Origin: Picocystis sp. L7
Taxonomy: Eukaryota > Chlorophyta > Picocystophyceae > Picocystales > Picocystaceae
Length of the DNA stretch: 64,000 nucleotides
Direction: 5' to 3'
Assembly (NCBI GenBank): GCA_020975725.1
Contig: QXJR01000017.1
Coordinates: forward strand, 435,001-499,000
The notes under the pieces are model-generated. The model worked only from the letters and a program-made list of their open reading frames with translations. It was not told the origin of the DNA and did not search any database. A program made the translations under genes and the position numbers. Positions 56 to 16,051 of this stretch are shown here, piece after piece. Each line of letters opens with the position of its first letter. The stretch's first letter is position 1.

Positions 56-204
56 TGAAAGGGACTTTGGGTCCCAGGCCCCCCTACGAGGAGCCTCGGT
101 CTCCCCTCCATCCTGGGTCACCCAACCAAGGGCCCCAGGATTCGGTTATACTAGCTTATGCGTGGGTGGTCCCCTCTGGCTTGATTGGAGACAGACAGTC
201 CCCC
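56..204 (+). repeat. 5' LTR, left part
   Basis: This stretch matches the start of the 3' LTR (13233 onward) with one difference seen. The match breaks at a run of C where the nested transposon block begins. Because of the C run the exact junction is uncertain by a few bases. Confidence 0.85.
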
Positions 205-993
205 CCCACCCCACCGCCACTTTTTCTTCATAGGGAGAGAGGGGCTGTCGCTGTGGGATCCGTGGAGCCTCGGGTGGACCTCTCCAGACGTTGCTCCTCC
301 AATCGAAGTTGTAGAGCACTCCGTGTTGAGGGGTTTGGATCGATGGACCCCGACCTGGTTCGACCCGTGCAAGAGCAGGGAGGCCCGTGCACGTCCCAGG
401 GTCTTTCGGGGCTGGATCCTGCCTCGTTTCCCCTGGCGGGTGCTCCTTCCTTTCGACGCGCGTATCTCTTCGAATATGGGTTCAAATCGAGCGAACGATA
501 GCTCGTTGGATAGGTCTCGGCGCGTTCTTTCGAACGGTGCTCTCAAAATGCCCAAATTCTGCCTGGCACGAGTTCTAGAGTCGAAAAACCACCGGCAGGT
601 GGTGGGGACCCCAAACGGCACCGCTGCTCAACACCTCCCCGAGGGCAGCCAGGCATCCACATAGAACCGGACCGCCAAACTTTAGGAGAGGAAAGAGAGA
701 AAGATAGGACACCTTCAGGAGAAAAAGCACATCGAGAGTCGATGCTCCTGGTGCCATGAAGCGCATGTTCAACCGCCTGGCCAAAACGCCCCAAAAAGGG
801 TGAATTTTGGAACACCCCCGAGCCAGCCGCGCCGAGTTCACCGGAAAGACGAACGATCCAGGACCAACCAAGCTCAGATTCGGATTCTCCTCGTCGAATC
901 ACCCAGAAACACCACAAAAAAGAAGGGGGAACAGGCCTGATGTGAAGAAAAAGCCAGAGGACTCACGCTTCCCCGAAGTGGCGGTGGGGTGGG
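205..993. mobile_element. E1: ~789-bp element with 16-18 bp terminal inverted repeats, diverged copy
   Basis: Left end CCCACCCCACCGCCACTT; right end is its reverse complement AGTGGCGGTGGGGTGGG followed by TA (994-995). E1 differs from E2 and E3 at scattered positions in its left half and strongly between about 580 and 697. From about 698 to its end it is identical to them. I recognise no protein in it, so it behaves like a non-autonomous, MITE-like element. Confidence 0.65.
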
Positions 994-1175
994 TACGTGG
1001 GGGGCGTTTCGGGATCTGCTGGATTGGGGGGGGCGTGGCGCCCGAAGTACGAGGTTTCTGGTCCTGAAATTCAAACCGTAGTTGATCCGGACGATGTACA
1101 ATTCACCTGCCAAATCTCGTTGTCCTGCCGTCACTCAGCGAGTGGCAGTGCCCCCGAGAGTCACCGCTGGTAGGT

Positions 1176-2417
1176 ATGGCAGGTTTGGAGGGGGGGTGCT
1201 GTCAACTCCCCTCCCCCAGCACACAGGGTGAGCAAGGGAGGATTATGGGGTGGAATCGAAAGAGGAAAGACCAAATACAGCACCGACCGGAGTTCAAGGC
1301 AAAGCGCTTCGTGATGGGGAAGAAGCGCACAAAAAAGCCATCACCAGGCCTCATGGAGGAAGCGGCCATCCAGGCCACCAAAGCGGCGTACAAGGTGCTG
1401 AGTGGGAATCTCTCCGCCACGTCCAAGGTTATGAAGCGGAGTTGGGTGACAGTGAAGTCTTGGGTGAAGGATCGTAAGCCCAAAGCTCCTTCCTCTTCAA
1501 AACGTCGTTCCCTCTCTTATGCCCGTGGTCATGGCAAGTGGCTGTGCAACTTGCTCAAGTCTCGTGCACTTGAAGGCCAGGCCATGGGAACAAGGGACGT
1601 CATGAGCGAGTGGGAAGCACGGTACGGACGGAGAGTACCGTTGAGGACCTTGCAACGGCTGTTGAAGGATTTGGGGGTGAAGACCAAGGTCCAAAAAAAG
1701 GTGATGAAGTTGCAGGCCTCGCACAAGGCCAATAGAGTGAAGTTTGCGGAACGGCACTTGGGGGATGATTTTGGGCGGGTTCTTTTCACGGATGCCCACC
1801 AAATTTACCTGGGAACCACCAAGCACAAAGGCTCCAAACGAACCCTGGTCCCTCCTGGTACCACACCCCTCGTGGAGTACAACATGGCCCCCCCACGAAT
1901 CAAAGTGTATGGTGGGGTGTGTGCCCGTGGACTCACAGGCCTGTTGACAGTCACGGGGACCACCGGGCAGCCCAGTGACTTCAAGGATGGACAAGGGAAG
2001 GTGTCCAAGGGTGTAGGACAGCAGGAGTACGCAGAAAAAGTCCTCCCTTGGCTGATGAAGGAGGGCACCAGGTTGTACAAGAAGGCCCCTTGGACCTTTC
2101 AACAGGATGGGGATGGGGCCCATCGATCGAAGGCCACCATTCTCAAGTTGGTGGAGCTCTCCACTCAAGCTCACGTGGATCTCATGTTGGATTGGCCCTC
2201 TCTCAGCCCTGATCTTAGTCCCATTGAAAACGTGTGGTCTTGCTTGGACAGGAGGGTGGAAGCCATGGGACCCACCACCTTGGAAGAGCTCAAAACCTGC
2301 ACCTTTCGTGCATGGAAGGAGCTCTCCAAAGAGGGGCTTGGATCAAAGCTCCTCAAAACCATGCCCAAGAGGCTTGAAGAGGTCATCCTCAACCGTGGGG
2401 AGTTCACCAAGTATTGA
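1176..2417 (+). CDS. Tc1/mariner-IS630-like transposase, copy 1
   Basis: This 413-residue protein would cut and paste the surrounding transposon in the nucleus. The N-terminal third is basic and has a helix-turn-helix-like stretch (about residues 60-95). The catalytic region has the Tc1/mariner signature: FTDAH with D206, FQQDGDGAH with D311, and SPDLSPIENVW with E351. There are 39 residues between the second D and the E, against 34 in classical Tc1. The first ATG in frame is used; a later Met before GWNRKRK could be the true start. The gene looks intact and sits in the T segment between E1 and E2. The family call rests on motifs; the subfamily is not known. Confidence 0.85.
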   Translation: MAGLEGGCCQLPSPSTQGEQGRIMGWNRKRKDQIQHRPEFKAKRFVMGKKRTKKPSPGLMEEAAIQATKAAYKVLSGNLSATSKVMKRSWVTVKSWVKDRKPKAPSSSKRRSLSYARGHGKWLCNLLKSRALEGQAMGTRDVMSEWEARYGRRVPLRTLQRLLKDLGVKTKVQKKVMKLQASHKANRVKFAERHLGDDFGRVLFTDAHQIYLGTTKHKGSKRTLVPPGTTPLVEYNMAPPRIKVYGGVCARGLTGLLTVTGTTGQPSDFKDGQGKVSKGVGQQEYAEKVLPWLMKEGTRLYKKAPWTFQQDGDGAHRSKATILKLVELSTQAHVDLMLDWPSLSPDLSPIENVWSCLDRRVEAMGPTTLEELKTCTFRAWKELSKEGLGSKLLKTMPKRLEEVILNRGEFTKY

Positions 2418-3023
2418 TTGCCTCCCATGAGAAAATGGCTTGTCTTGTAATTTGACTTGACAGTTTCTGTCTGTTTTTCCTTCCGTTTCTCGCTCAAAAC
2501 CAGGCACCCCCATGGAGTCGTGTGTTGGGCTCCTACGGACTTGTAGCTGCTCCACGCAGATCAAATCAACTAATGGAGCCCCTGTGAACGCTTGCATGCA
2601 GCTGAAACGGCTTGAGAAGGCCAGCCTGGGGCTCGGCCCCGTTGATGGGACTCATGGGACCTCTCAAGACACACCCCCAGGCTTCCCTCCCCAGGCTCTC
2701 GGGGATCCTTGCGAAAGCGGATTGTAACCAAACTCCGTGAGCACTACTCCTGACATGTGATTCAACTACCCTCCAGTTTTTGTGGCCAAAAACGTCGTGG
2801 TTCGTACGGTATGCCTAAAAGCCTCTCCCTGGAGGACAGGCCTGAATCACTGAGTTTCGGCCTGTTTTCAGCACCAAACCGTGGTCGTCCTTTCTCAGCC
2901 ACCACAGCGTTTCAGGAGCTACCCATCCGGTACAGTATTCCTCTAGCTCACTTCATAGGTCTCCCAGAGTTTCGTAGCCATCCAAGGCGCCATACGTCCG
3001 CGGTGGCCTCGGCAGCAAGCCCT
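2418..3023. other. T segment 3' part, no gene recognised
   Basis: This is the sequence between the transposase stop and E2, repeated at 5239-5844. It includes a pyrimidine-rich stretch near 2460-2490. No coding signal or inverted repeat matching the upstream T border (996-1175) was convincing. Confidence 0.5.
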
Positions 3024-3025
3024 TA

Positions 3026-3814
3026 CCCACCCCACCGCCACTTTTTCTTCATAGGGAGAGAGGGGCTGTGGCTGTGGGATCCGTGGAGCCTCGGGTGGAC
3101 CTCTCCAGACGTTGCTCTTCCAATCGAAGTTGTAGAGCACTCCGTTTTGAGGGGTTTGGATCGATGGACCCCGACCTGGTTCGGCCCGTGCAAGAGCAGG
3201 GAGGCCCGTGCACGTCCCAGGGTCTTTCGGGGCTGGATCCTGCCTCGTTTCCCCTGGCGGGTGCTCCTTCCTTTCGACGCGCGTATCTCTTCGAATATGG
3301 GCTCTAATCGAGCGAACGATAGCTCGTTGGATAGGTCTCGGCGCGTTCTTTCGAACGGTGCTCTCAAAATGCCCAAATTCTGCCTGGCACGAGTTCTAGA
3401 GGTGAATATTCACCACCAGGTGGTGGGGACCCCAAACGGCACCGCTGCTGCGCACCTCCCCGAGGGCAGCCGAGCGCCCACGGGGAACTGGAACGCCAAA
3501 CCCGGGGAAGGGAAAGACAGAAAGATAGGACACCTTCAGGAGAAAAAGCACATCGAGAGTCGATGCTCCTGGTGCCATGAAGCGCATGTTCAACCGCCTG
3601 GCCAAAACGCCCCAAAAAGGGTGAATTTTGGAACACCCCCGAGCCAGCCGCGCCGAGTTCACCGGAAAGACGAACGATCCAGGACCAACCAAGCTCAGAT
3701 TCGGATTCTCCTCGTCGAATCACCCAGAAACACCACAAAAAAGAAGGGGGAACAGGCCTGATGTGAAGAAAAAGCCAGAGGACTCACGCTTCCCCGAAGT
3801 GGCGGTGGGGTGGG
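3026..3814. mobile_element. E2: ~789-bp element with terminal inverted repeats and TA flanks
   Basis: The element has the same inverted termini as E1. TA lies immediately outside on both sides (3024-3025 and 3815-3816), as expected for a Tc1/mariner-type target duplication. A 334-codon open frame crosses from the T segment into E2. It has no recognisable domain and is probably fortuitous. Confidence 0.65.
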
Positions 3815-3996
3815 TACGTGGGGGGCGTTTCGGGATCTGCTGGATTGGGGGGGGCGTGGCGCCCGAAGTACGAGGTTTCTGGTCCTGAAATTCAAACCGT
3901 AGTTGATCCGGACGATGTACAATTCACCTGCCAAATCTCGTTGTCCTGCCGTCACTCAGCGAGTGGCAGTGCCCCCGAGAGTCACCGCTGGTAGGT

Positions 3997-5238
3997 ATGG
4001 CAGGTTTGGAGGGGGGGTGCTGTCAACTCCCCTCCCCCAGCACACAGGGTGAGCAAGGGAGGATTATGGGGTGGAATCGAAAGAGGAAAGACCAAATACA
4101 GCACCGACCGGAGTTCAAGGCAAAGCGCTTCGTGATGGGGAAGAAGCGCACAAAAAAGCCATCACCAGGCCTCATGGAGGAAGCGGCCATCCAGGCCACC
4201 AAAGCGGCGTACAAGGTGCTGAGTGGGAATCTCTCCGCCACGTCCAAGGTTATGAAGCGGAGTTGGGTGACAGTGAAGTCTTGGGTGAAGGATCGTAAGC
4301 CCAAAGCTCCTTCCTCTTCAAAACGTCGTTCCCTCTCTTATGCCCGTGGTCATGGCAAGTGGCTGTGCAACTTGCTCAAGTCTCGTGCACTTGAAGGCCA
4401 GGCCATGGGAACAAGGGACGTCATGAGCGAGTGGGAAGCACGGTACGGACGGAGAGTACCGTTGAGGACCTTGCAACGGCTGTTGAAGGATTTGGGGGTG
4501 AAGACCAAGGTCCAAAAAAAGGTGATGAAGTTGCAGGCCTCGCACAAGGCCAATAGAGTGAAGTTTGCGGAACGGCACTTGGGGGATGATTTTGGGCGGG
4601 TTCTTTTCACGGATGCCCACCAAATTTACCTGGGAACCACCAAGCACAAAGGCTCCAAACGAACCCTGGTCCCTCCTGGTACCACACCCCTCGTGGAGTA
4701 CAACATGGCCCCCCCACGAATCAAAGTGTATGGTGGGGTGTGTGCCCGTGGACTCACAGGCCTGTTGACAGTCACGGGGACCACCGGGCAGCCCAGTGAC
4801 TTCAAGGATGGACAAGGGAAGGTGTCCAAGGGTGTAGGACAGCAGGAGTACGCAGAAAAAGTCCTCCCTTGGCTGATGAAGGAGGGCACCAGGTTGTACA
4901 AGAAGGCCCCTTGGACCTTTCAACAGGATGGGGATGGGGCCCATCGATCGAAGGCCACCATTCTCAAGTTGGTGGAGCTCTCCACTCAAGCTCACGTGGA
5001 TCTCATGTTGGATTGGCCCTCTCTCAGCCCTGATCTTAGTCCCATTGAAAACGTGTGGTCTTGCTTGGACAGGAGGGTGGAAGCCATGGGACCCACCACC
5101 TTGGAAGAGCTCAAAACCTGCACCTTTCGTGCATGGAAGGAGCTCTCCAAAGAGGGGCTTGGATCAAAGCTCCTCAAAACCATGCCCAAGAGGCTTGAAG
5201 AGGTCATCCTCAACCGTGGGGAGTTCACCAAGTATTGA
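3997..5238 (+). CDS. Tc1/mariner-IS630-like transposase, copy 2
   Basis: This is the second, apparently identical copy of the gene at 1176-2417, in the second unit of the 2821-bp tandem duplication. It keeps the same D, D and E residues with the 39-residue spacing. Two intact identical copies mean either could supply transposase for the E elements, whose termini are the only clear inverted repeats in the block. Confidence 0.85.
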   Translation: MAGLEGGCCQLPSPSTQGEQGRIMGWNRKRKDQIQHRPEFKAKRFVMGKKRTKKPSPGLMEEAAIQATKAAYKVLSGNLSATSKVMKRSWVTVKSWVKDRKPKAPSSSKRRSLSYARGHGKWLCNLLKSRALEGQAMGTRDVMSEWEARYGRRVPLRTLQRLLKDLGVKTKVQKKVMKLQASHKANRVKFAERHLGDDFGRVLFTDAHQIYLGTTKHKGSKRTLVPPGTTPLVEYNMAPPRIKVYGGVCARGLTGLLTVTGTTGQPSDFKDGQGKVSKGVGQQEYAEKVLPWLMKEGTRLYKKAPWTFQQDGDGAHRSKATILKLVELSTQAHVDLMLDWPSLSPDLSPIENVWSCLDRRVEAMGPTTLEELKTCTFRAWKELSKEGLGSKLLKTMPKRLEEVILNRGEFTKY

Positions 5239-5846
5239 TTGCCTCCCATGAGAAAATGGCTTGTCTTGTAATTTGACTTGACAGTTTCTGTCTGTTTTTC
5301 CTTCCGTTTCTCGCTCAAAACCAGGCACCCCCATGGAGTCGTGTGTTGGGCTCCTACGGACTTGTAGCTGCTCCACGCAGATCAAATCAACTAATGGAGC
5401 CCCTGTGAACGCTTGCATGCAGCTGAAACGGCTTGAGAAGGCCAGCCTGGGGCTCGGCCCCGTTGATGGGACTCATGGGACCTCTCAAGACACACCCCCA
5501 GGCTTCCCTCCCCAGGCTCTCGGGGATCCTTGCGAAAGCGGATTGTAACCAAACTCCGTGAGCACTACTCCTGACATGTGATTCAACTACCCTCCAGTTT
5601 TTGTGGCCAAAAACGTCGTGGTTCGTACGGTATGCCTAAAAGCCTCTCCCTGGAGGACAGGCCTGAATCACTGAGTTTCGGCCTGTTTTCAGCACCAAAC
5701 CGTGGTCGTCCTTTCTCAGCCACCACAGCGTTTCAGGAGCTACCCATCCGGTACAGTATTCCTCTAGCTCACTTCATAGGTCTCCCAGAGTTTCGTAGCC
5801 ATCCAAGGCGCCATACGTCCGCGGTGGCCTCGGCAGCAAGCCCTTA

Positions 5847-6633
5847 CCCACCCCACCGCCACTTTTTCTTCATAGGGAGAGAGGGGCTGTGGCTGTGGGA
5901 TCCGTGGAGCCTCGGGTGGACCTCTCCAGACGTTGCTCTTCCAATCGAAGTTGTAGAGCACTCCGTTTTGAGGGGTTTGGATCGATGGACCCCGACCTGG
6001 TTCGGCCCGTGCAAGAGCAGGGAGGCCCGTGCACGTCCCAGGGTCTTTCGGGGCTGGATCCTGCCTCGTTTCCCCTGGCGGGTGCTCCTTCCTTTCGACG
6101 CGCGTATCTCTTCGAATATGGGCTCTAATCGAGCGAACGATAGCTCGTTGGATAGGTCTCGGCGCGTTCTTTCGAACGGTGCTCTCAAAATGCCCAAATT
6201 CTGCCTGGCACGAGTTCTAGAGGTGAATATTCACCACCAGGTGGTGGGGACCCCAAACGGCACCGCTGCTGCGCACCTCCCCGAGGGCAGCCGAGCGCCC
6301 ACGGGGAACTGGAACGCCAAACCCGGGGAAGGGAAAGACAGAAAGATAGGACACCTTCAGGAGAAAAAGCACATCGAGAGTCGATGCTCCTGGTGCCATG
6401 AAGCGCATGTTCAACCGCCTGGCCAAAACGCCCCAAAAAGGGTGAATTTTGGAACACCCCCGAGCCAGCCGCGCCGAGTTCACCGGAAAGACGAACGATC
6501 CAGGACCAACCAAGCTCAGATTCGGATTCTCCTCGTCGAATCACCTAGAAACACCACAAAAAAGAAGGGGGAACAGGCCTGATGTGAAGAAAAAGCCAGA
6601 GGACTCACGCTTCCCCGAAGTGGCGGTGGGGTG
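5847..6633. mobile_element. E3: ~787-bp element with terminal inverted repeats, right edge of the block
   Basis: This is the E2 sequence shifted by 2821 bp, with one base change noted (CACCTAG versus CACCCAG). Its left side is flanked by TA (5845-5846). The right end stops at GGGGTG and joins LTR sequence directly (CCCGGTC), so it lacks the GG-TA border seen in E1 and E2. Confidence 0.65.
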
Positions 6634-7090
6634 CCCGGTCATTTTGGGTGAACCCCCGGTCCCTATACAGAGATCGGTCCCTACCTCGAGGCCCCAACAC
6701 AGAAGGGTACTCGATCGAGGGTTCCCCAATCCCGAGGCTCTGCCCTGGAGGATCGGACGGCCAGAAGGGCTCCAGCAGCCCTTGCTCCCCAACAGAACGG
6801 ATCTTCACCGTTGGGTTGGGCACCAGACCCACCAAGAGATCTTTGCGGAGCAGATCTCATGGTGGATAAGGCCTGGAAACACCACCCCCCTGTGAGAAGC
6901 CACCTAGGGCTTCCCACAGGATCTTGTAATTGAATTAGAACCTTCCTGATCTCAGCTCCAGGTGCGCTTTGGTTCTCCGCACCTCCCAACTCAACGTGGA
7001 ACCTTCTCCACACGCAAAGTGCCAGAAACTTGGGCTGTTGTACGACCTGCTGTCGCTTCACAGCCTGCCCCAAGCCATCCAACCACAACA
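6634..7090 (+). repeat. 5' LTR, right part
   Basis: It resumes the 3' LTR sequence from about 13381 to 13837 with one difference seen, and ends in CA at 7089-7090. The 3' LTR is the unoccupied counterpart of the nested insertion site. I could not identify a convincing tRNA primer-binding site just after 7090. Confidence 0.85.
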
Positions 7091-7114: not shown

Positions 7115-8161
7115 ATGGAAGAAGATTCGGTTCTGGCTGCTACCACAGTAGCACGCCTTGAGGAAAGGGACTTGGCCAGGTCGCTGGCCACTCCCGAAGA
7201 CATCGAGGAAGAGGAGGACTTCAAACATGAACCTGCTGAATTCAGCGACATGTTTGAAGCCCTCCGAAAGTCCGGAGCAGTCAAAGGCATTGTAATGCCG
7301 TCTCCCACAGTCTTCACTGGGGAGGAGCTGAATAAGGATCCTTATGCCCTTCACAGGTGGTATAAGGAGACCTCTTGCTGGGTCAAAGCAAGAGTGGCGA
7401 AGGACGTTCCGCAGGCCGCTATGGCCCTCCAAACACTTGGAGGCACAGCCCGCCTTGCAATGGAAAACATGGAGACAGCAGCCCCTGGAAAGCTACAGTC
7501 TTTGGATGCGATATTCAGCGCACTGCTGAATATCTTCCAAAGATGTGACCCAGGTCCAAAAGCATACGATGAGTTCCTCAGAACTCGTATGCGAACGGAC
7601 GAAACAGCGGTGGATTTCCTGAACAGGTTGCTGTCACTGTCAGTAGTGATAGGCAGCAGCAAGGATCCCACAGTCTCCCGCATTTCCGATGCGGAACTGG
7701 CCGCACGCTTCCGCGCAGGGCTCCCGATATGGATGATTCAGCGGATGCGCGAAAAGCATCAGCTGCTGGTGACACTTCACCAGACCCCGGACATCAGCCC
7801 CTGGGGATTAGCAGGAACTGCCATGGACATTGAGCAGAACTGCTCCAGTGAACAGACTGGACAGGCTGCCAAACGCCCACAGCGTGCAGGACGCGTCAGC
7901 GCTATGAAGGACAGCAAGTCCTCCAAGGAGGAGGCAGTGAAGACCCAGCGCGCGTCCAAGCGCTTCAAGGACCTGGAAGAGAGGGACCAAGAATTGGTCA
8001 TGGCCCTCCAGGGGGACCTCAAGGGCTATGAGCTGAAGGCAAAGCTCCCTGGTGACCTGCTTCAGCGATGCCGCCAACTCTCGGTGTGCGATATCTGCCA
8101 TCGCTATGGCCACAGCGGCAGCGGCTGTAAAGCCCGTGCCGTGTTCAGTTCAAAAAACTGA
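7115..8161 (+). CDS. Gag-like capsid/nucleocapsid protein of the LTR retrotransposon
   Basis: The frame is 348 residues, starting 25 bases after the 5' LTR at the first in-frame ATG outside it. The central part is helix-rich, as in retrotransposon capsids. A CX2CX4HX4C zinc knuckle lies near the C-terminus (about residues 325-338), preceded by a lysine-rich segment. That arrangement is typical of Ty3/gypsy Gag. The pol frame begins 17 bases after the stop in a different frame. The gene looks whole. Confidence 0.85.
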   Translation: MEEDSVLAATTVARLEERDLARSLATPEDIEEEEDFKHEPAEFSDMFEALRKSGAVKGIVMPSPTVFTGEELNKDPYALHRWYKETSCWVKARVAKDVPQAAMALQTLGGTARLAMENMETAAPGKLQSLDAIFSALLNIFQRCDPGPKAYDEFLRTRMRTDETAVDFLNRLLSLSVVIGSSKDPTVSRISDAELAARFRAGLPIWMIQRMREKHQLLVTLHQTPDISPWGLAGTAMDIEQNCSSEQTGQAAKRPQRAGRVSAMKDSKSSKEEAVKTQRASKRFKDLEERDQELVMALQGDLKGYELKAKLPGDLLQRCRQLSVCDICHRYGHSGSGCKARAVFSSKN

Positions 8162-8178
8162 ACGCGCTCCAGCGGTCG

Positions 8179-11100
8179 ATGGGGGTTGACCGCATGGAGC
8201 CGGGAGCGTCAGCGAACGCTCCCCCTAACCTGGACCTGCCCCCCTTGAAGGAACCAGGACTCAAGCAGAATGATTTGCAGAAGTTGCAGCTGCAGGCCGT
8301 CCAGAATCGCAGACCTGGACAGGTGCTGCCATTGCATGCAATAGATAATTTGGCTCCAAGGAAGGAGTTTCTCACCTCTCAATGCTCGTTCGGTCGCAGA
8401 CCAGCGAAGGTGAGCAGTCAAGCATACCTGGACACACTGTCCAGCTTCTCCTTTGTAACACCTCAGTTGTTACAAAGGATACAACGGGCTGATGCACAAG
8501 GCATAACCTGGAAAACCACAGATGAGTATGTGGAATTTGGTGTGGCTGTGGGGAAGGAAACCCACAAGGCCCCCATTGTGCGCCTGGAACTTAGTATGGA
8601 CAGCTTCAGAGTTTGGCATGACTTTGGTATTGCTCCTGTCCAGGATTTTCAGTGTATCCTGGGCAGTGACTTTTCAAACTCTTACCTGCAGGTGCTGAAT
8701 TGGCAGCAAAGGACCATGATCCTCCAAGACGCAACCGGACGTCGCCATACAGTACATGGCGATGGGGACTTCATCCAGGCACGACGACTCGACTTGATCG
8801 TCCCTGCCGCTGAAGTTAGGCAAGCGGTGCGCACACCGGGTTGCCTGTATCTCATCGTACAACCGCAGGACACGCGATGGGAATTGGAAACAGAGGAGCA
8901 GGAGCTCCAGCAGGACAGAAGCCAGTTGAGTGCGCAGGCCGCGCTCTCAGAAGCGGAACAGCAGAGGTTGGACAACCTCCTGGACCAATATTCAGACTGC
9001 TTTAAAGCAAGGAAGGGTCCACCCGCGGAACGGGTCCCCGGCGAAAACTTCAGTATCCCCCTGGAATCTGAAGCAAAACCACAGTTCACCCAGTACTATC
9101 GCTTGTCGCCAACAGAACGCGAAGAGTTGCGAAAGCTGCTGAGTGAATATGTGGATGCAGGGAAAATGGATGTTTGTGCAGGCTCAGCCTGGGGTGCACC
9201 AGTGATCCTGGTCCCCAAGAAGGATGGAGGCTGGAGAGTGGTGTTCGATTATCGCAAGCTGAACAATGTTGCGATGAAAGATCGATACCCTCTGCCACGC
9301 ATCGATGACTTTCTGCAGGGGCTAGGCGGTGCCCGTTACTTTTCTGCGCTGGACGCATTGGACGGGTTCCATCAGTTGCCAATGAACCCAGAAGACATCC
9401 AAAAAACAGCAGTTCAGACTCCCTTTGGGAGTTACACCTGGAGGGTAATGCCCATGGGCATAGCAAATGCCCCAGCAGCCTTCCAGAGAATGATGAACAG
9501 GATTTTCGGACACTTGACCTTTTCTAAGGTCTATGTGGATGACATCCTGGTTCACTCAACCAGCAAGGAAGCTCACTTCCAGCACCTTGAAGACCTTTTC
9601 CAAGTGTGCAAGGCCGCAGATGTACGTTTGAAACGTACAAAGTGCCATTTCTTCTGCACCAAATTGGACTGGGTTGGGTTCAGGATCGAGAACCAGGAGC
9701 TGCGGTGCGCACCGCAAAAGCTCAGCAAGATCCAGCACTTCCCCAAACCCAGATCGCAGAAAGAAAACATGGCCTTCCTGGGCCTATGCCAATTCTACTT
9801 GAGGTTTGTACCTCACTACTCAGATGCTGCAGCTCCACTCACTGAGCTCAACAAGAAAAAGTACGCCCACGACTTTCAGCGCTACTGGTTGGATCGACAT
9901 GACCATGCTTTTGATCTGCTGGTGACCCAGCTCACCACTGCCCCTGCGCTGGCGCTGTACAATGAGGACCACGCGATCCGCATCGAGACAGACGCGTCAA
10001 ATATTGGCATGGGGGCAGTACTGCACCAGGAAATCTCCCCGGGCGAATGGCGTCCGGTCGAGTACTGGAGCCGCAAGTTCAATTCAGCTCAGCGAAACTA
10101 CCACGCTGCTGAACGCGAAACGTGCGCCATTGTTTACGCATTGGCTCACTGGAAGCACTTGGTGTTCGGCCGACCGTTTACGGTCATCACCGATAACACA
10201 GCATCCAAGTACCTTACGACAAAGAGCGTACAGCAGTTGTCGCCCCGCGACCCTCGCTGGATCGAAAAACTGGCATACTATGCCCCATTCAACGTGGAAT
10301 TCCGCCCTGGAATTCAGAATGTGGCCGCAGATTACTTCTCACGCCACCCGGTGGATGATTCAGCCAAACCGCTCAAGACGATTACTGTCCTGGACCTCTG
10401 TGCAGGAATGGGTACGACCCTTCGTGCCCTCGAACAAGCCATCCCAGAAACTGCAGAGTTGTCCATCAACTACATTGCAGTGGAGCAGGACCCCGATTGC
10501 GCAGCAATCGTACAGCGCGTGTTCAATTCTGTTCACCTCTCAAGACCTGGCCTGTTCATACGCGAAGACATCTTTCGCTATGGCAGCGATGTGCGCACCC
10601 TAGCGCATCGTCGCTTGCTGCCACCGGTGGACCTATTGATCGCTGGTGTGCCGTGCCAGCCCTTTTCGCGCGCCAACACATCAGACAGAGACCCCCCTCT
10701 GGGGCTGCGCGATGTGCGTGAACTGTTCACAGCGGTGCGAGACATTCGCAAACGCCTGGTAGGGGGACACTCCTACATCATAGAGTGTACCCCGTTCGCT
10801 CCGCATCTGCAGGATGACCTGGAGCGCATCAATGAATGGTTTGGAGAGCCACAAGAACACAACATGGCTCACTTTTCTGCCCAGCAGCGCACTCGCTTAT
10901 GCTGGACAGATCTGCCTCCACCCAAACCACAGGAACATCTATCGTCAGGGTTGCCCCTGACCTGGCAAGACTGCTTGGAACCTGGGGCGACTCCCCCGTT
11001 GGATAACCAGGGCCTGCCCCGCCTGAAATGCCCCACTCTGATGGCATCGCCAGGCAGTCACAGTGACCGCTCGCGTTCCACCTGGGTCATGGGACAAAAC

Positions 11101-13200
11101 CAGACCCTGCGCGAATTGACGATAGAGGAACGCGAACGCTTGGTGGGCATGCAGCCCAATGACACAGCAGGGTACAAGATTACCCCTGCTGCTCGCAGAA
11201 GAATGTGTGGAAACGCCTTTCCCGTAGGTTGGCTGTCCGTGTTAGTAGCAGATTGGTACCACTCGTGGATTCGTAAACTGCTCGGTACCCGTAGTGACAT
11301 CACTATGAGTGGTTTGGTAACGGCTGCTCCACGACACTCCCCTCCTAGCGACAATGGATCGGCAGTACACCTATCAGGTGTACCTTTACTGTCACGCATT
11401 CGTACAGCGATTCAGAATGACCAGCAATACTTGACCTACCTGGACCACCCACCTGGTGGATATACATGCAGGAATGGCCTGCTGTTTCAAGACAATGCAT
11501 CTGCAGAATTTGGACGCTACGCAGGTCCAGCGGTTCTGCGCGTCCCTCAAGACAATGCGCTACGCCAGGATCTGCTTCACCTGGTGCACGATCGCATCCA
11601 CTTTGGAGCCCATCGTACGTTCGAGTCAGCTCGTCGACACTTTATCTGGCCTGGCATGAAGACACACATCAAGCAATTTGTGGCACGGTGCCCTACCTGC
11701 CAGAGAATGAAGCCAGCAAACAAGAGCGCCGCTCGGCCTCATCTTCCAGAGATGAGGTTCTACCCTCATCCATTTCATACTGTAGTGGTGGATGTGGTTG
11801 AAGGCTTGCCAGTCACTCCTGATCACCACAATGCAGTGATCACCGTAGTCGACCGCCTTACGAAGTTTGCTGTGTACATTCCCATGCACACAACCTGGTC
11901 CGCAACGAAACAAGCCCGTGCGCTGCTGGATTGTGTGGCGTACAGGTATCATACCCCATCCATCATTCATACAGATAATGGGCCTGCGTATCGCAAACTG
12001 TTCGGCGCGTACTGTACAGCTTTGGGTGCCAGCCACAAGACCGGTACCCCGTACCATTCGCAGTCGCAGGGACCAGTGGAACGCCAGCATCGCACGCTTC
12101 TACAGACGCTGCGCACATCGTCCGAACGCCCCGACAATTGGGATCAGTACCTTCAAGCTGCAGCGCACGCATACAACGATAGCGTGCACCCGTTCCTGCA
12201 ACGCAGTCCCTTTGAGATGTTATATGGCTGTGCATCTCGCTTGCCGTGGCGTCTGCAGATCACAACAGCAGACCTGCCAACAAGGCAACTGCTGACTACA
12301 CCCAACAAGATGGTCACTGGTTTGCTAGACGAGCAGCGCAGAGTGTACAATGATGTACGGGACCTGCTGGTGAAACGCGCACGCGAACAGGCAACCATGA
12401 CACAGGACCTCCCCAACAGGATATTCAAGTCGGGGGATATGGTCAAGCTCCAGTATGGACTAAAAAGCACACGGGATCGCCCCAAACTGGATCCATACTG
12501 GGAAGGGCCCTACTGCATTGACAGAGCATTGGGTCAGGATGCCTATAGCCTGAAGCTGCCCCCCGGTACTCGCTTCCAGAATCGATTCCACTTGGATCGT
12601 CTCAGACCGTGGATTGAATCAGATCTGACACTGTTCCCAATGGATCGCGCTGCGCAGCCATTGGACCAGCTTCCCACCTCAGTGCAGGAACTCGGCGGGA
12701 CGCAATTACAGATTGCGCAATATCTAGTGCGCGACTTTGTGGATTTTCCAGCAGGTGCAGTACAGTACTGGGCTCGCTCGCACGATGGCCAGACTTCCTG
12801 GGTCAGCGAAAGCGCACAGAATCTGGATGAAGTATTGGACCTGGAGGAAACAAATGGATGCCTGCCCGAGCGCGGCATCGGCAAGCGCAACCTGGACGCC
12901 GTCCGACAACACAAAGAAGACATCTACATGCAGACCCCCAATCCTATTCTGCAGAATACATGGACCTGGTCATCTCTGCCGTACAGCACTCGACAGCGGC
13001 AACAGTGGAAGCCTCCTTCTAGGCTGGCTGGACAAGTAGTGATGGAGGCCTTTGAGATTGACCAGGGCGTGCAGTTCTATCAGGGTCTCGTACAGACCGA
13101 TGGACGCACGGTGGTATGGACTGATGGGTTCAAGACAAAACACAGGACATCAGAGCTCCAGGCTCTTTTGTACAACCCTGTAGCAGTAGTTTACAGTTGA
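8179..13200 (+). CDS. Pol polyprotein of the LTR retrotransposon with embedded DNA methyltransferase
   Basis: The frame is 1673 residues. In order it has an aspartic-protease-like region (about 60-180), reverse transcriptase with YVDD at about 452, RNase H (about 590-720), a cytosine-5 DNA methyltransferase (about 735-1034), an HHCC zinc-binding integrase head (about 1136-1180), an integrase core (about 1200-1310), a GPY/F-type segment (about 1418-1475), a chromodomain-like stretch (about 1515-1560) and a final Tudor-like stretch (about 1618-1665). RT-RNase H-integrase order places it in Ty3/gypsy. The last two labels rest on pattern resemblance only. The frame looks whole. Confidence 0.9.
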   Translation: MGVDRMEPGASANAPPNLDLPPLKEPGLKQNDLQKLQLQAVQNRRPGQVLPLHAIDNLAPRKEFLTSQCSFGRRPAKVSSQAYLDTLSSFSFVTPQLLQRIQRADAQGITWKTTDEYVEFGVAVGKETHKAPIVRLELSMDSFRVWHDFGIAPVQDFQCILGSDFSNSYLQVLNWQQRTMILQDATGRRHTVHGDGDFIQARRLDLIVPAAEVRQAVRTPGCLYLIVQPQDTRWELETEEQELQQDRSQLSAQAALSEAEQQRLDNLLDQYSDCFKARKGPPAERVPGENFSIPLESEAKPQFTQYYRLSPTEREELRKLLSEYVDAGKMDVCAGSAWGAPVILVPKKDGGWRVVFDYRKLNNVAMKDRYPLPRIDDFLQGLGGARYFSALDALDGFHQLPMNPEDIQKTAVQTPFGSYTWRVMPMGIANAPAAFQRMMNRIFGHLTFSKVYVDDILVHSTSKEAHFQHLEDLFQVCKAADVRLKRTKCHFFCTKLDWVGFRIENQELRCAPQKLSKIQHFPKPRSQKENMAFLGLCQFYLRFVPHYSDAAAPLTELNKKKYAHDFQRYWLDRHDHAFDLLVTQLTTAPALALYNEDHAIRIETDASNIGMGAVLHQEISPGEWRPVEYWSRKFNSAQRNYHAAERETCAIVYALAHWKHLVFGRPFTVITDNTASKYLTTKSVQQLSPRDPRWIEKLAYYAPFNVEFRPGIQNVAADYFSRHPVDDSAKPLKTITVLDLCAGMGTTLRALEQAIPETAELSINYIAVEQDPDCAAIVQRVFNSVHLSRPGLFIREDIFRYGSDVRTLAHRRLLPPVDLLIAGVPCQPFSRANTSDRDPPLGLRDVRELFTAVRDIRKRLVGGHSYIIECTPFAPHLQDDLERINEWFGEPQEHNMAHFSAQQRTRLCWTDLPPPKPQEHLSSGLPLTWQDCLEPGATPPLDNQGLPRLKCPTLMASPGSHSDRSRSTWVMGQNQTLRELTIEERERLVGMQPNDTAGYKITPAARRRMCGNAFPVGWLSVLVADWYHSWIRKLLGTRSDITMSGLVTAAPRHSPPSDNGSAVHLSGVPLLSRIRTAIQNDQQYLTYLDHPPGGYTCRNGLLFQDNASAEFGRYAGPAVLRVPQDNALRQDLLHLVHDRIHFGAHRTFESARRHFIWPGMKTHIKQFVARCPTCQRMKPANKSAARPHLPEMRFYPHPFHTVVVDVVEGLPVTPDHHNAVITVVDRLTKFAVYIPMHTTWSATKQARALLDCVAYRYHTPSIIHTDNGPAYRKLFGAYCTALGASHKTGTPYHSQSQGPVERQHRTLLQTLRTSSERPDNWDQYLQAAAHAYNDSVHPFLQRSPFEMLYGCASRLPWRLQITTADLPTRQLLTTPNKMVTGLLDEQRRVYNDVRDLLVKRAREQATMTQDLPNRIFKSGDMVKLQYGLKSTRDRPKLDPYWEGPYCIDRALGQDAYSLKLPPGTRFQNRFHLDRLRPWIESDLTLFPMDRAAQPLDQLPTSVQELGGTQLQIAQYLVRDFVDFPAGAVQYWARSHDGQTSWVSESAQNLDEVLDLEETNGCLPERGIGKRNLDAVRQHKEDIYMQTPNPILQNTWTWSSLPYSTRQRQQWKPPSRLAGQVVMEAFEIDQGVQFYQGLVQTDGRTVVWTDGFKTKHRTSELQALLYNPVAVVYS
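10381..11280 (+). other. Cytosine-5 DNA methyltransferase domain inside Pol
   Basis: The diagnostic C5-methyltransferase motifs occur in order. They are motif I LDLCAGMG (about residue 738), motif IV GVPCQPFS with the catalytic Cys at 826, motif VI IIECTPF (Glu near 869), motif VIII QQRTRLCW (about 902), and motifs IX-X ending in GNAFPVGW (about 1011). The QQRTRLCW region followed by LP recalls the DNMT3 branch. The domain would use S-adenosylmethionine to methylate cytosine in DNA. It lies between RNase H and integrase in the same frame, so it is a polyprotein part rather than a neighbouring gene. Confidence 0.88.
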
Positions 13201-13232: not shown

Positions 13233-13837
13233 TGAAAGGGACTCTGGGTCCCAGGCCCCCCTACGAGGAGCCTCGGTCTCCCCTCCATCCTGGGTCACCC
13301 AACCAAGGGCCCCAGGATTCGGTTATACTAGCTTATGCGTGGGTGGTCCCCTCTGGCTTGATTGGAGACAGACAGTCCCCCCCGGTCATTTTGGGTGAAC
13401 CCCCGGTCCCTATACAGAGATCGGTCCCTACCTCGAGGCCCCAACACAGAAGGGTACTCGATCGAGGGTTCCCCAATCCCGAGGCTCTGCCCTGGAGGAT
13501 CGGACGGCCAGAAGGGCTCCAGCAGCCCTTGCTCCCCAACAGAACGGATCTTCACCGTTGGGTTGGGCACCAGACCCACCAAGAGATCTTTGCGGAGCAG
13601 ATCTCATGGTGGATAAGGCCTGGAAACACCACCCCCCTGTGAGAAGCCACCTAGGGCTTCCCACAGGATCTTGTAATTGAATTAGAACCTTCCTGATCTC
13701 AGCTCCAGGTGCGCTTTGGTTCTCCGCACCTCCCAACTCAACGTGGAACCTTCTCCACACGCAAAGTGCCAGAAACTTGGGCTGTTGTACGACCTGCTGT
13801 CGCTTCACAACCTGCCCCAAGCCATCCAACCACAACA
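13233..13837 (+). repeat. 3' LTR, uninterrupted, 605 bp
   Basis: It begins TGAAAGGGAC and ends CCACAACA, so it has the usual TG...CA termini. It shows the empty state of the site that carries the transposon block in the 5' LTR: seven C then GGTCATTTTGGG. A modest purine-rich stretch lies just upstream (about 13219-13230) and could be the polypurine tract. Confidence 0.9.
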
Positions 13838-16051
13838 TACAGTGGTGAGGTGCTCCGCGTGTTGCGCCTCACCACCGGAGAGCAAGAGGCGATCATTCGC
13901 TTCGACTCACCAGGCGCGGTGGTGGAGGAATGGTCGGCTACCGTTGAAACGGTAGTCCGATACAGAGTTATGGAGCGGCTGGAGGAAGGAGAAGCGGAGC
14001 GCGCACCCCTGGAGGAGGAACGCGGCGCGGAAGTGGAAGTTGGTGGGTTCGTGGGTGAAGGCGCGCCACCCTCGGAGGTGTCGCCGGAGGAGGCCTTCCT
14101 CGACGTCCAGGAGTGCACACTGCTCCACGAGGAAGGTCTCGACCCATTAGAAGACAGTGTAGAAGCTAATGGAAGCGTTGGAAATGCGTTTGGAGTGGTG
14201 TGGAGCGAGGAAAAAGGAGAAGTGGCGGTGGACCCTCGTGCTGAAAGTGGGACGACGACGAGGTTACGGGGACATGCGTCGCCGTCGTCGTACTTGCCGG
14301 AGCCGTTTCGTGAGACGGAAGCGTTGCAATTCTTTCTCAGATTCTTTCCGTTTGAGTTGCTGACAGATTGGGCGAAGGAAATCACACGGCGCGGGCGCAG
14401 CAAGTACAATAAGCCAGGTGATACGTTCTTGTCCTACGACAGGGATTGTACACCTGGTTTGCTGCTAAGGGTGTTTGGTTGCTTCGTGTACATGCTTCTT
14501 TTTCCAGGACACAGCAGGAAATCGTTTTGGCAGGTGGTCGACATAGAGAAGGACCCATTGGCAGTTCAATTTTGCCTCAACAAGTACATCTCTAGGAGGG
14601 ACTTTGACAGAATTCTGGAATTTTTTGCAGACAGTGTGCCCAAGTATACAGCGGAGCGAGGAGCGAGGATGGACAGGCCTGAGCAAGCAGGAGCTTGCAA
14701 AGGACCACGAGGCACCATGCATACTTTGCATGGTGATCCTCACTGGGAATTGCGTCGGTTTTGGGATGCATGGAATGTCCATGCAACCAAACACTACACG
14801 CCCAGTTGGTTGGTGGTGGTGGACGAGTCAATGTTGAAATGGATGGGCAGGTATATGCCCTCACGGATGTTTCTTCGTCGAAAGCCGGATCCGTTAGGAC
14901 GCGAGCTGAAAACTGTATGTGATGGGCTGACGGGTGTGTGTTTTCGTATGGAGCCCGTGGAGAATGCAGAATTGATGAAGGGCAAACAGTTTTATTCAGA
15001 CTTTGGGACCACCACAGCTACTACCCTCCGGTTGATGGAGCCTTTGTTTGGAAGTGGGCGTGTTTGTCTTGGCGACAGTTGGTTTGGCTCAGTGAAAACG
15101 TGTTGTGCCCTTTTGGATCGTGGTTTATTTTCAATTTTGAATGTGAAGACGGCGCACAGAGGCTTTCCAAGGGCGACACTGGAGCGTTTGTTGGCAAGTG
15201 ACCCTCATCAGCGTGGGTTGACGGTTTGCGTTCCTGGCGAGGTGCATGCGGGAAGGACGAGGAGGAAGATCAAGGCAACCGCTCATCGTGGTCCAGCAGG
15301 TGTACCATTGTGCTTGGTATCATCCTGTTTCACCACACAACCGGCAGGGACATTAAAATATATGGTGAAGCACCCGACGGACACCACACATCTACTGGCG
15401 AAAGAAATACCAGTAGATGAAACGTCCCAGGTGTACAGATCAAGATATGGCATCGTGGACCAACACAACAGGTTAAGAACAGGTAGTGTTGCGTTCCACG
15501 ACGTCTGGAAAACGCACGACTTTCGAATCCGCGAGTTCAGCGAACTGATTGGGTTGGCCGAGGTCAACACGTTTCTGCTCATGCGTGCGAAAGGAACAGG
15601 GCAGGTGCGACAGAAGCACACTAGGAAGGTTTTAGCGAAGGAGCTTTTGGAAAACGCGTGGATAATGGCAGAGTTGGAGTTGGAGAGGCAGCAGGCCCTT
15701 CGTCTCCGACCGTTACTTGCTGCGATGGCAGGCGAGGAGGGAGGGATCGGTCACCGTTTGGTTTCGTTGGAGGAGGTGATGAAGTATAGTGGAGAAGGCA
15801 CCGGCGCGAAAAAGATAATACAACGCCGGTGTGTGATGTGCGGGAAGAAAGCATCAGCAGCATGTCTGCTATGCCATAGACCAAGCGAAGGCACAGTTGC
15901 CTACCTTTGTGGGCCGTATACTGGCCGCGAATGCGCGGCGCAGCACATGGCGGGGGTACCCTCCCGACGTCGACGTCGGGTGTCGGGTGAGGACGTGCGA
16001 GCGCTGCCAACGGCGCGCACGCGTCGAAGATCGAGGCATAGCCTCGAATAA
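13838..16051 (+). CDS. piggyBac-like transposase (DDE_Tnp_1_7), 5' part displaced by the LTR insertion
   Basis: In view are 737 codons to the TAA at 16049-16051. An acidic, low-complexity N-terminal part is followed by the piggyBac core. Catalytic aspartates are visible at the expected landmarks: VVVDESMLKWMGR (D at 14822), CLGDSWFGS (D at 15074) and YGIVDQHNRLR (D at 15458). A C-terminal cysteine-rich zinc domain follows (about 15830-15950: CVMCGKK, CLLCHRP, CGPYTGREC). The frame is open throughout this part. The upstream coding part lies before the retrotransposon (1-55) and beyond the window. The enzyme would excise and insert at TTAA sites. Split by a 13.8-kb element, this copy is unlikely to be active now. 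Confidence 0.88.
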   Translation, partial: YSGEVLRVLRLTTGEQEAIIRFDSPGAVVEEWSATVETVVRYRVMERLEEGEAERAPLEEERGAEVEVGGFVGEGAPPSEVSPEEAFLDVQECTLLHEEGLDPLEDSVEANGSVGNAFGVVWSEEKGEVAVDPRAESGTTTRLRGHASPSSYLPEPFRETEALQFFLRFFPFELLTDWAKEITRRGRSKYNKPGDTFLSYDRDCTPGLLLRVFGCFVYMLLFPGHSRKSFWQVVDIEKDPLAVQFCLNKYISRRDFDRILEFFADSVPKYTAERGARMDRPEQAGACKGPRGTMHTLHGDPHWELRRFWDAWNVHATKHYTPSWLVVVDESMLKWMGRYMPSRMFLRRKPDPLGRELKTVCDGLTGVCFRMEPVENAELMKGKQFYSDFGTTTATTLRLMEPLFGSGRVCLGDSWFGSVKTCCALLDRGLFSILNVKTAHRGFPRATLERLLASDPHQRGLTVCVPGEVHAGRTRRKIKATAHRGPAGVPLCLVSSCFTTQPAGTLKYMVKHPTDTTHLLAKEIPVDETSQVYRSRYGIVDQHNRLRTGSVAFHDVWKTHDFRIREFSELIGLAEVNTFLLMRAKGTGQVRQKHTRKVLAKELLENAWIMAELELERQQALRLRPLLAAMAGEEGGIGHRLVSLEEVMKYSGEGTGAKKIIQRRCVMCGKKASAACLLCHRPSEGTVAYLCGPYTGRECAAQHMAGVPSRRRRRVSGEDVRALPTARTRRRSRHSLE

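Follow-up and report, generated by a model that had tools for sequence, protein, structure and literature searches.

The window, a stretch of DNA of 64,000 nucleotides, contains a young Ty3/Gypsy LTR retrotransposon of a green alga; in its single open pol frame, Pfam places a methyltransferase domain between RNase H and integrase. The reading put forward here, with a probability of about 0.55, is that this young element makes its Gag-Pol by −1 frameshifting and that the DNMT3-type enzyme carried in Pol methylates the element's own cDNA. The parts of the element, in window coordinates, are as follows.

56..206, + strand: first part of the 5′ LTR, matching the start of the 3′ LTR at 13233
207..6633, + strand: DNA-transposon insert nested in the 5′ LTR and foreign to the retroelement
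6634..7090, + strand: second part of the 5′ LTR, identical to the 3′ LTR at all but 1 of 457 nt
7115..8161, + strand: gag-like ORF; by eye, a C-X2-C-X4-H-X4-C knuckle is seen towards its end
8131..13200, + strand: pol open frame of 1689 codons stop-to-stop; the first ATG, at 8179, gives 1673 aa
8152..8158, + strand: putative −1 frameshift heptamer A AAA AAC, immediately 5′ of the gag TGA (8159-8161)
9211..9687, + strand: reverse transcriptase (PF00078, 8.7e-34; pol residues 345-503)
9886..10281, + strand: RNase H (PF17919, 2.5e-31; PF17917, 4.5e-31; pol residues 570-701)
10381..11280, + strand: DNMT3-type C5-cytosine methyltransferase domain (best PF00145 stretch, pol residues 736-833)
11551..11715, + strand: integrase H2C2 zinc-binding domain (PF17921, 2e-18; pol residues 1125-1179)
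11767..12060, + strand: integrase core, rve (PF00665, 5.4e-11; pol residues 1197-1294)
12433..12612, + strand: SH3_Tf2-1-like integrase C-terminal domain (PF24626, 4.5e-6, slightly under the curated cut-off; pol residues 1419-1478)
12700..12858, + strand: possible chromodomain-like module
13015..13188, + strand: possible Tudor/Agenet-like module
13233..13837, + strand: 3′ LTR

The pol order (RT, RNase H, DDE integrase) is that of Ty3/Gypsy elements, as are the direct LTRs of 605 nt (TG...CA) and the target-site duplication: GTACA lies to the left of the 5′ LTR and TACAG to the right of the 3′ LTR, TACA being common to both. A Pfam search with the gag-like ORF (7115..8161) gave no match. The A AAA AAC site is common to 14 of 17 family-A loci, the window included, and a −1 frameshift is the most likely route to Gag-Pol in the window element.

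The nested insert (207-6633) has a 2821-bp repeat spacing and inverted repeats of 16-20 nt, and its ORF at 1176-2417 encodes a Tc1/mariner-type transposase. At the other end, an ORF for a piggyBac-type transposase (13709-16051; PF13843, 'Transposase IS4') adjoins the 3′ LTR, its open frame beginning within the LTR. Between 48000 and 64000 the AT skew of the + strand is strongly negative over a long stretch, and a Pfam search with the two large ORFs found there gave no match.

When the 300-residue product of 10381-11280 was isolated and used in a profile search, PF00145 was matched at 1.5e-11, which bears out the sequence-only reading of a C5-methyltransferase in the pol of an LTR element. The DNMT3-like flavour also suggested in that reading was upheld by sequence and fold, which are nearer to DNMT3 than to DNMT1, DNMT2, CMT or bacterial enzymes, and by the tree described below. 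Catalytic motifs I, IV, VI, VIII and X are all present in unrearranged order, and the catalytic Cys, the Glu, RxR and the GN of motif X were invariant in all 47 rows examined. Motif VI reads E-C-T/V instead of E-N-V, the usual Asn being missing in 47 of 47 rows. Identity to the catalytic domain of metazoan DNMT3A/3B is about 24%, and the Gypsy domain, unlike those enzymes, lacks ADD and PWWP and has ECT in motif VI and GNAFPV in motif X. Where it could be computed, dN/dS was 0.05-0.32 for the methyltransferase, compared with 0-0.31 for integrase and 0.02-0.28 for RT; of the 12 between-copy pairs in a second set, saturation affected every one of the three domains in four and RT alone in another two. 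The methyltransferase is under purifying selection comparable to that on integrase.

The domain is no isolated case: it is present at 158 or more places across the 20.5 Mb genome, spread over three diverged Gypsy families (A, B and C). This figure (131 + 9 + 21 − 3) is a lower bound, as further methyltransferase matches lie outside the lists used. With the domain piece as query, 131 places were scored from 189 candidates, 16 of them containing stops and three belonging to family C; family B contributes nine more and family C 21 in all. Of the 131, 59 lie in frames that run for 1660 aa or more without interruption. Pairing 150 scored RNase H matches with 150 scored H2C2 matches gave 108 pairs and left 42 RNase H matches unpaired. 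A methyltransferase match lay between the two domains in 86 pairs, or 88 with the family-C matches on contigs C7 and C4 included; of the remaining 20, one has a longer spacer and 19 (family D) have one about 400 nt shorter. An assembly or chimera artefact or a one-off insertion is rejected on these counts, spread over many contigs, and on public proteins of other origin that share the domain content; its probability is practically negligible. Contigs C3 and C4 make up 12% of the assembly, yet carry 51 of the 131 copies. At one family-C locus (C4:1048299-1063439) three copies stand in tandem with 7149-bp spacing and identical methyltransferase pieces.

The Gypsy copies compared as DNA were 20 loci (L009-L028), eight 3.9-kb pieces, and L029, L030, L034, L036, L037, L039 and L040. 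LTR pairs were detected in 18 of the 20 loci, although some LTRs extend beyond the limits of the 10-kb loci and a tandem neighbour confuses the L020 rows. Identity was at least 99% in 17 of the 18 pairs and 100% in nine, in agreement with the youth claimed for the element from its sequence; the exception, L018, stands at 96.3%. Target-site duplications of 5 nt were seen in six of the 18, with one more ambiguous (end shift of up to 3 nt allowed). The sampled copies are thus mostly young, recent insertions.

The earlier suggestion of a red-lineage alga did not survive: the host has a nuclear, plant-type rbcS (on contig C6, 870 kb) together with MET1, chromodomain-CMT, DRM and DNMT2. A search of the genome for rbcL found none. 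The rbcS product matched its best chain at 1e-52, the next at about 1e-35 and then one at 6e-12; from their entry codes we take these to be land-plant, Chlamydomonas-type and red-type chains, respectively. The MET1 gene has RFD and BAH domains, the CMT gene BAH and a chromodomain, and DNMT2 was matched at 2.8e-66; a PWWP methyltransferase is also encoded. Host DRM matched 4onq, presumably tobacco DRM, at 7.5e-38 and DRM2 chains at 9e-29. The gene set is probably that of a streptophyte-like green alga, the streptophyte-like affinity being likely because DRM is present and is stated, in the available part of a 2025 paper, to be confined to streptophytes (PMC12344493). By way of caveat, CMT-like enzymes are mentioned there for haptophytes too. 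A tree of the host myristoyltransferase (the window row and 46 rows chosen from 120 listed) yielded no more than a long branch standing apart.

These elements also occur in EukProt fragments under the label Pavlova_lutheri, and in one of them (P0009) 1205 of 1205 residues are identical to those of the L018 pol. The label is probably wrong or the data set mixed. The haptophyte host that it would imply is not supported, as the Diacronema lutheri genome is given as 73.25% GC and 43.5 Mb in the part of PMC8379373 available, against 44-65% GC per 2 kb in the window and an assembly of 20.5 Mb.

The origin of the domain was examined with a 28-row tree containing ten Gypsy methyltransferases picked to span families A, B and C, P0018 and P0021; its DNMT3A row is partial, DRM was left out and long branches are present. 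The ten form one clade (98/94), which argues against a separate capture in each family. The Gypsy clade, DNMT3A and the phage-type protein P0159 were split from host MET1, CMT, DNMT2 and PWWP methyltransferase and from eleven bacterial-type rows (92/97), P0159 joining DNMT3A (99/97). P0160 adjoins the Gypsy clade (98/91). Pfam recognised the methyltransferase alone in P0160; the stretch upstream of it is apparently a Copia RNase H end, judged by eye from its motif. Of 121 PF00145 matches in the six-frame translation of the genome, in which intron-split genes can escape, the strongest ones outside the elements were inspected, and an unrearranged cellular DNMT3 was absent among these. The best match not visibly a piece of an element was to phage DNMT3-like methyltransferases (P0159 and its kin, 1.3e-16). 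P0159 is free-standing, is 30% identical to the element domain and has kin in viral contigs and phage records; viral contigs hold 34 partial relatives at 26-47% identity.

Families A and C are 37% identical in RT, 49% in methyltransferase and 32% in integrase, and families A and B 40%, 37% and 34.5%. On bootstrapping (seven A rows, one B and two C), the A-C minus A-B difference was +12.9 for methyltransferase (95% 8.1 to 17.9), as against −2.6 for RT (−7.3 to 2.4) and −2.4 for integrase (−7.0 to 2.1). The best trees place A with B for RT (90/90), A with C for methyltransferase (69/67) and B with C for integrase (91/91); AU tests on these trees did not reject the alternatives (p 0.06-0.25). One copy, L007 (C3:484112-488011), is mosaic: over roughly the first 1.2 kb, which takes in RT and part of RNase H, it departs from L001 with dS of about 1.26, like another lineage, and its methyltransferase and integrase are of the window type (dS about 0.03), the break lying about 300 nt upstream of the methyltransferase domain. 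The identity patterns and this mosaic suggest that the domain may have been swapped between elements, including those of families A and C.

Family D, the 19 of 108 pairs in which no methyltransferase is recognisable, spreads without the domain, which is thus dispensable for a Gypsy element in this host. Two of its loci (L039 and L040) have a spacer of their own between RNase H and integrase, weakly co-linear with the methyltransferase. The score of this alignment was reached by 26 of 2000 shuffles (1181 were reported with a score), and hhalign gave P 0.011 with a probability of just 3.7; that the spacer might be a decayed methyltransferase is suggestive only.

For 25 pol frames with a methyltransferase, CpG observed/expected lay at 0.66-0.82; two frames of family D gave 0.99-1.00, five regions of host genes 0.61-0.92 and positions 16500-48000 of the window 0.98. 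CpG depletion is no stronger in the elements than in host genes and is not element-specific. Among recent transitions there is a mild CpG excess: 0.28 fell at CpG, compared with 0.20 of the C/G sites left unchanged (28 non-independent pairs). The corresponding values in other methyltransferase-bearing sets were 0.30/0.20, 0.29/0.19, 0.25/0.18, 0.28/0.19, 0.19/0.17 and 0.18/0.18, and in a single family-D pair 0.27/0.27.

If the Pol-borne enzyme does act on the element's own cDNA, Pol, whether processed or working as a fusion, would bring the methyltransferase into the particle beside newly made cDNA, whose cytosines could then be methylated before or at integration. Such action in the particle has likewise been proposed for DIRS elements in the available text of PMC5890265. 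A new copy would arrive already marked, and the cDNA might be protected, be passed as host DNA or be settled in silent chromatin, where host MET1 and CMT could maintain the mark. The chromodomain/Tudor-like tail, itself weakly supported, would fit insertion into marked chromatin. The spread of family D without the domain counts against a strong requirement for the methyltransferase. A wider scheme can be offered tentatively and is itself on the doubtful side: one DNMT3-type methyltransferase, captured anciently and lodged between RNase H and integrase, would be an exchangeable module passed among deeply diverged green-algal Gypsy (perhaps also Copia) families and, with a chromatin-reading tail, would turn Pol into a writer-reader, able to mark its own cDNA and to direct it into marked chromatin of a host that retains the plant set of MET1, CMT and DRM.

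The enzyme might instead target chromatin at the insertion site or sister copies, and not its own cDNA, and hold transcription down to a level at which the host tolerates the element. Host MET1, CMT and DRM could keep such marks, and the possible chromodomain/Tudor-like tail and the 51 of 131 places on C3 and C4 (12% of the assembly) would be in keeping with this, but CpG loss no greater than in host genes and the persistence of family D without the domain speak against it, and self-restraint of this kind appears rather unlikely. It is less probable still that the domain is a structural passenger, a spacer or nucleic-acid binder for which catalysis no longer matters. The altered motif VI in all 47 rows and the different spacer that family D has at the same place would suit such a role; the Cys, the Glu, both Arg of RxR and the motif X GN, however, are invariant in the same 47 rows across lineages, several of which show saturated synonymous change. 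Methylation of the element RNA or tRNA primer in place of DNA is very improbable. This activity was raised for SymbioLINE-Dnmt, whose tested enzyme failed to methylate DNA in yeast, but a retrotransposon DNMT of the Dnmt3 type did show activity towards CG DNA (both from the available part of PMC5890265), and the domain studied here groups with DNMT3, apart from host DNMT2. Methylation of the element's own cDNA remains the preferred reading.

That the element belongs to a reported kind of methyltransferase-bearing retrotransposon, as first proposed from the sequence, is supported by a published Gypsy precedent. A literature search for Gypsy elements with Dnmt3 in Pol found one reported for the charophyte Klebsormidium nitens, KnitGypsy-Dnmt3 (PMC5890265, in the part available); the part of PMC12344493 available reports Copia and DIRS elements in this context. 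The window element is, therefore, a further, abundant and diverse example, and adds another green alga to the known hosts of Gypsy elements with a methyltransferase. The small genome (20.5 Mb), with many young intact copies, plant-type methyltransferases and sister Gypsy copies lacking the domain, offers a natural comparison for asking how a transposon benefits when it methylates DNA. The single domain clade across diverged Gypsy families also recasts 'recurrent acquisition' partly as module sharing.

According to the available text of PMC5890265, KnitGypsy-Dnmt3 resembles the window element in having an intron-less, unrearranged Dnmt3-class domain within the Gypsy Pol frame of a green alga, with conserved key residues and purifying selection, although some of the present pairs (dN/dS 0.05-0.32) exceed that paper's 0.2. 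Its legend describes DIRS-like repeats, whereas the window element has an ordinary LTR pair. The present domain also differs in its abundance, with 158 places or more within 20.5 Mb, and in its spread over three diverged families; the two are set apart here by description and not by sequence, no K. nitens-named protein being among the protein matches listed. The independent capture suggested from the sequence alone is accordingly conjectural. In the same source, SymbioDIRS-Dnmt3 of Symbiodinium likewise has a Dnmt3-class domain in Pol with RT, and its methyltransferase carries out de novo CG methylation, but it is a DIRS element with a tyrosine recombinase, in contrast to the DDE integrase (rve) and LTRs found here. 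SymbioLINE-Dnmt, also of Symbiodinium, is similarly a high-copy retroelement with a C5-methyltransferase, but is described there as carrying it in a LINE ORF1 and as belonging to an orphan methyltransferase lineage (PMC5890265).
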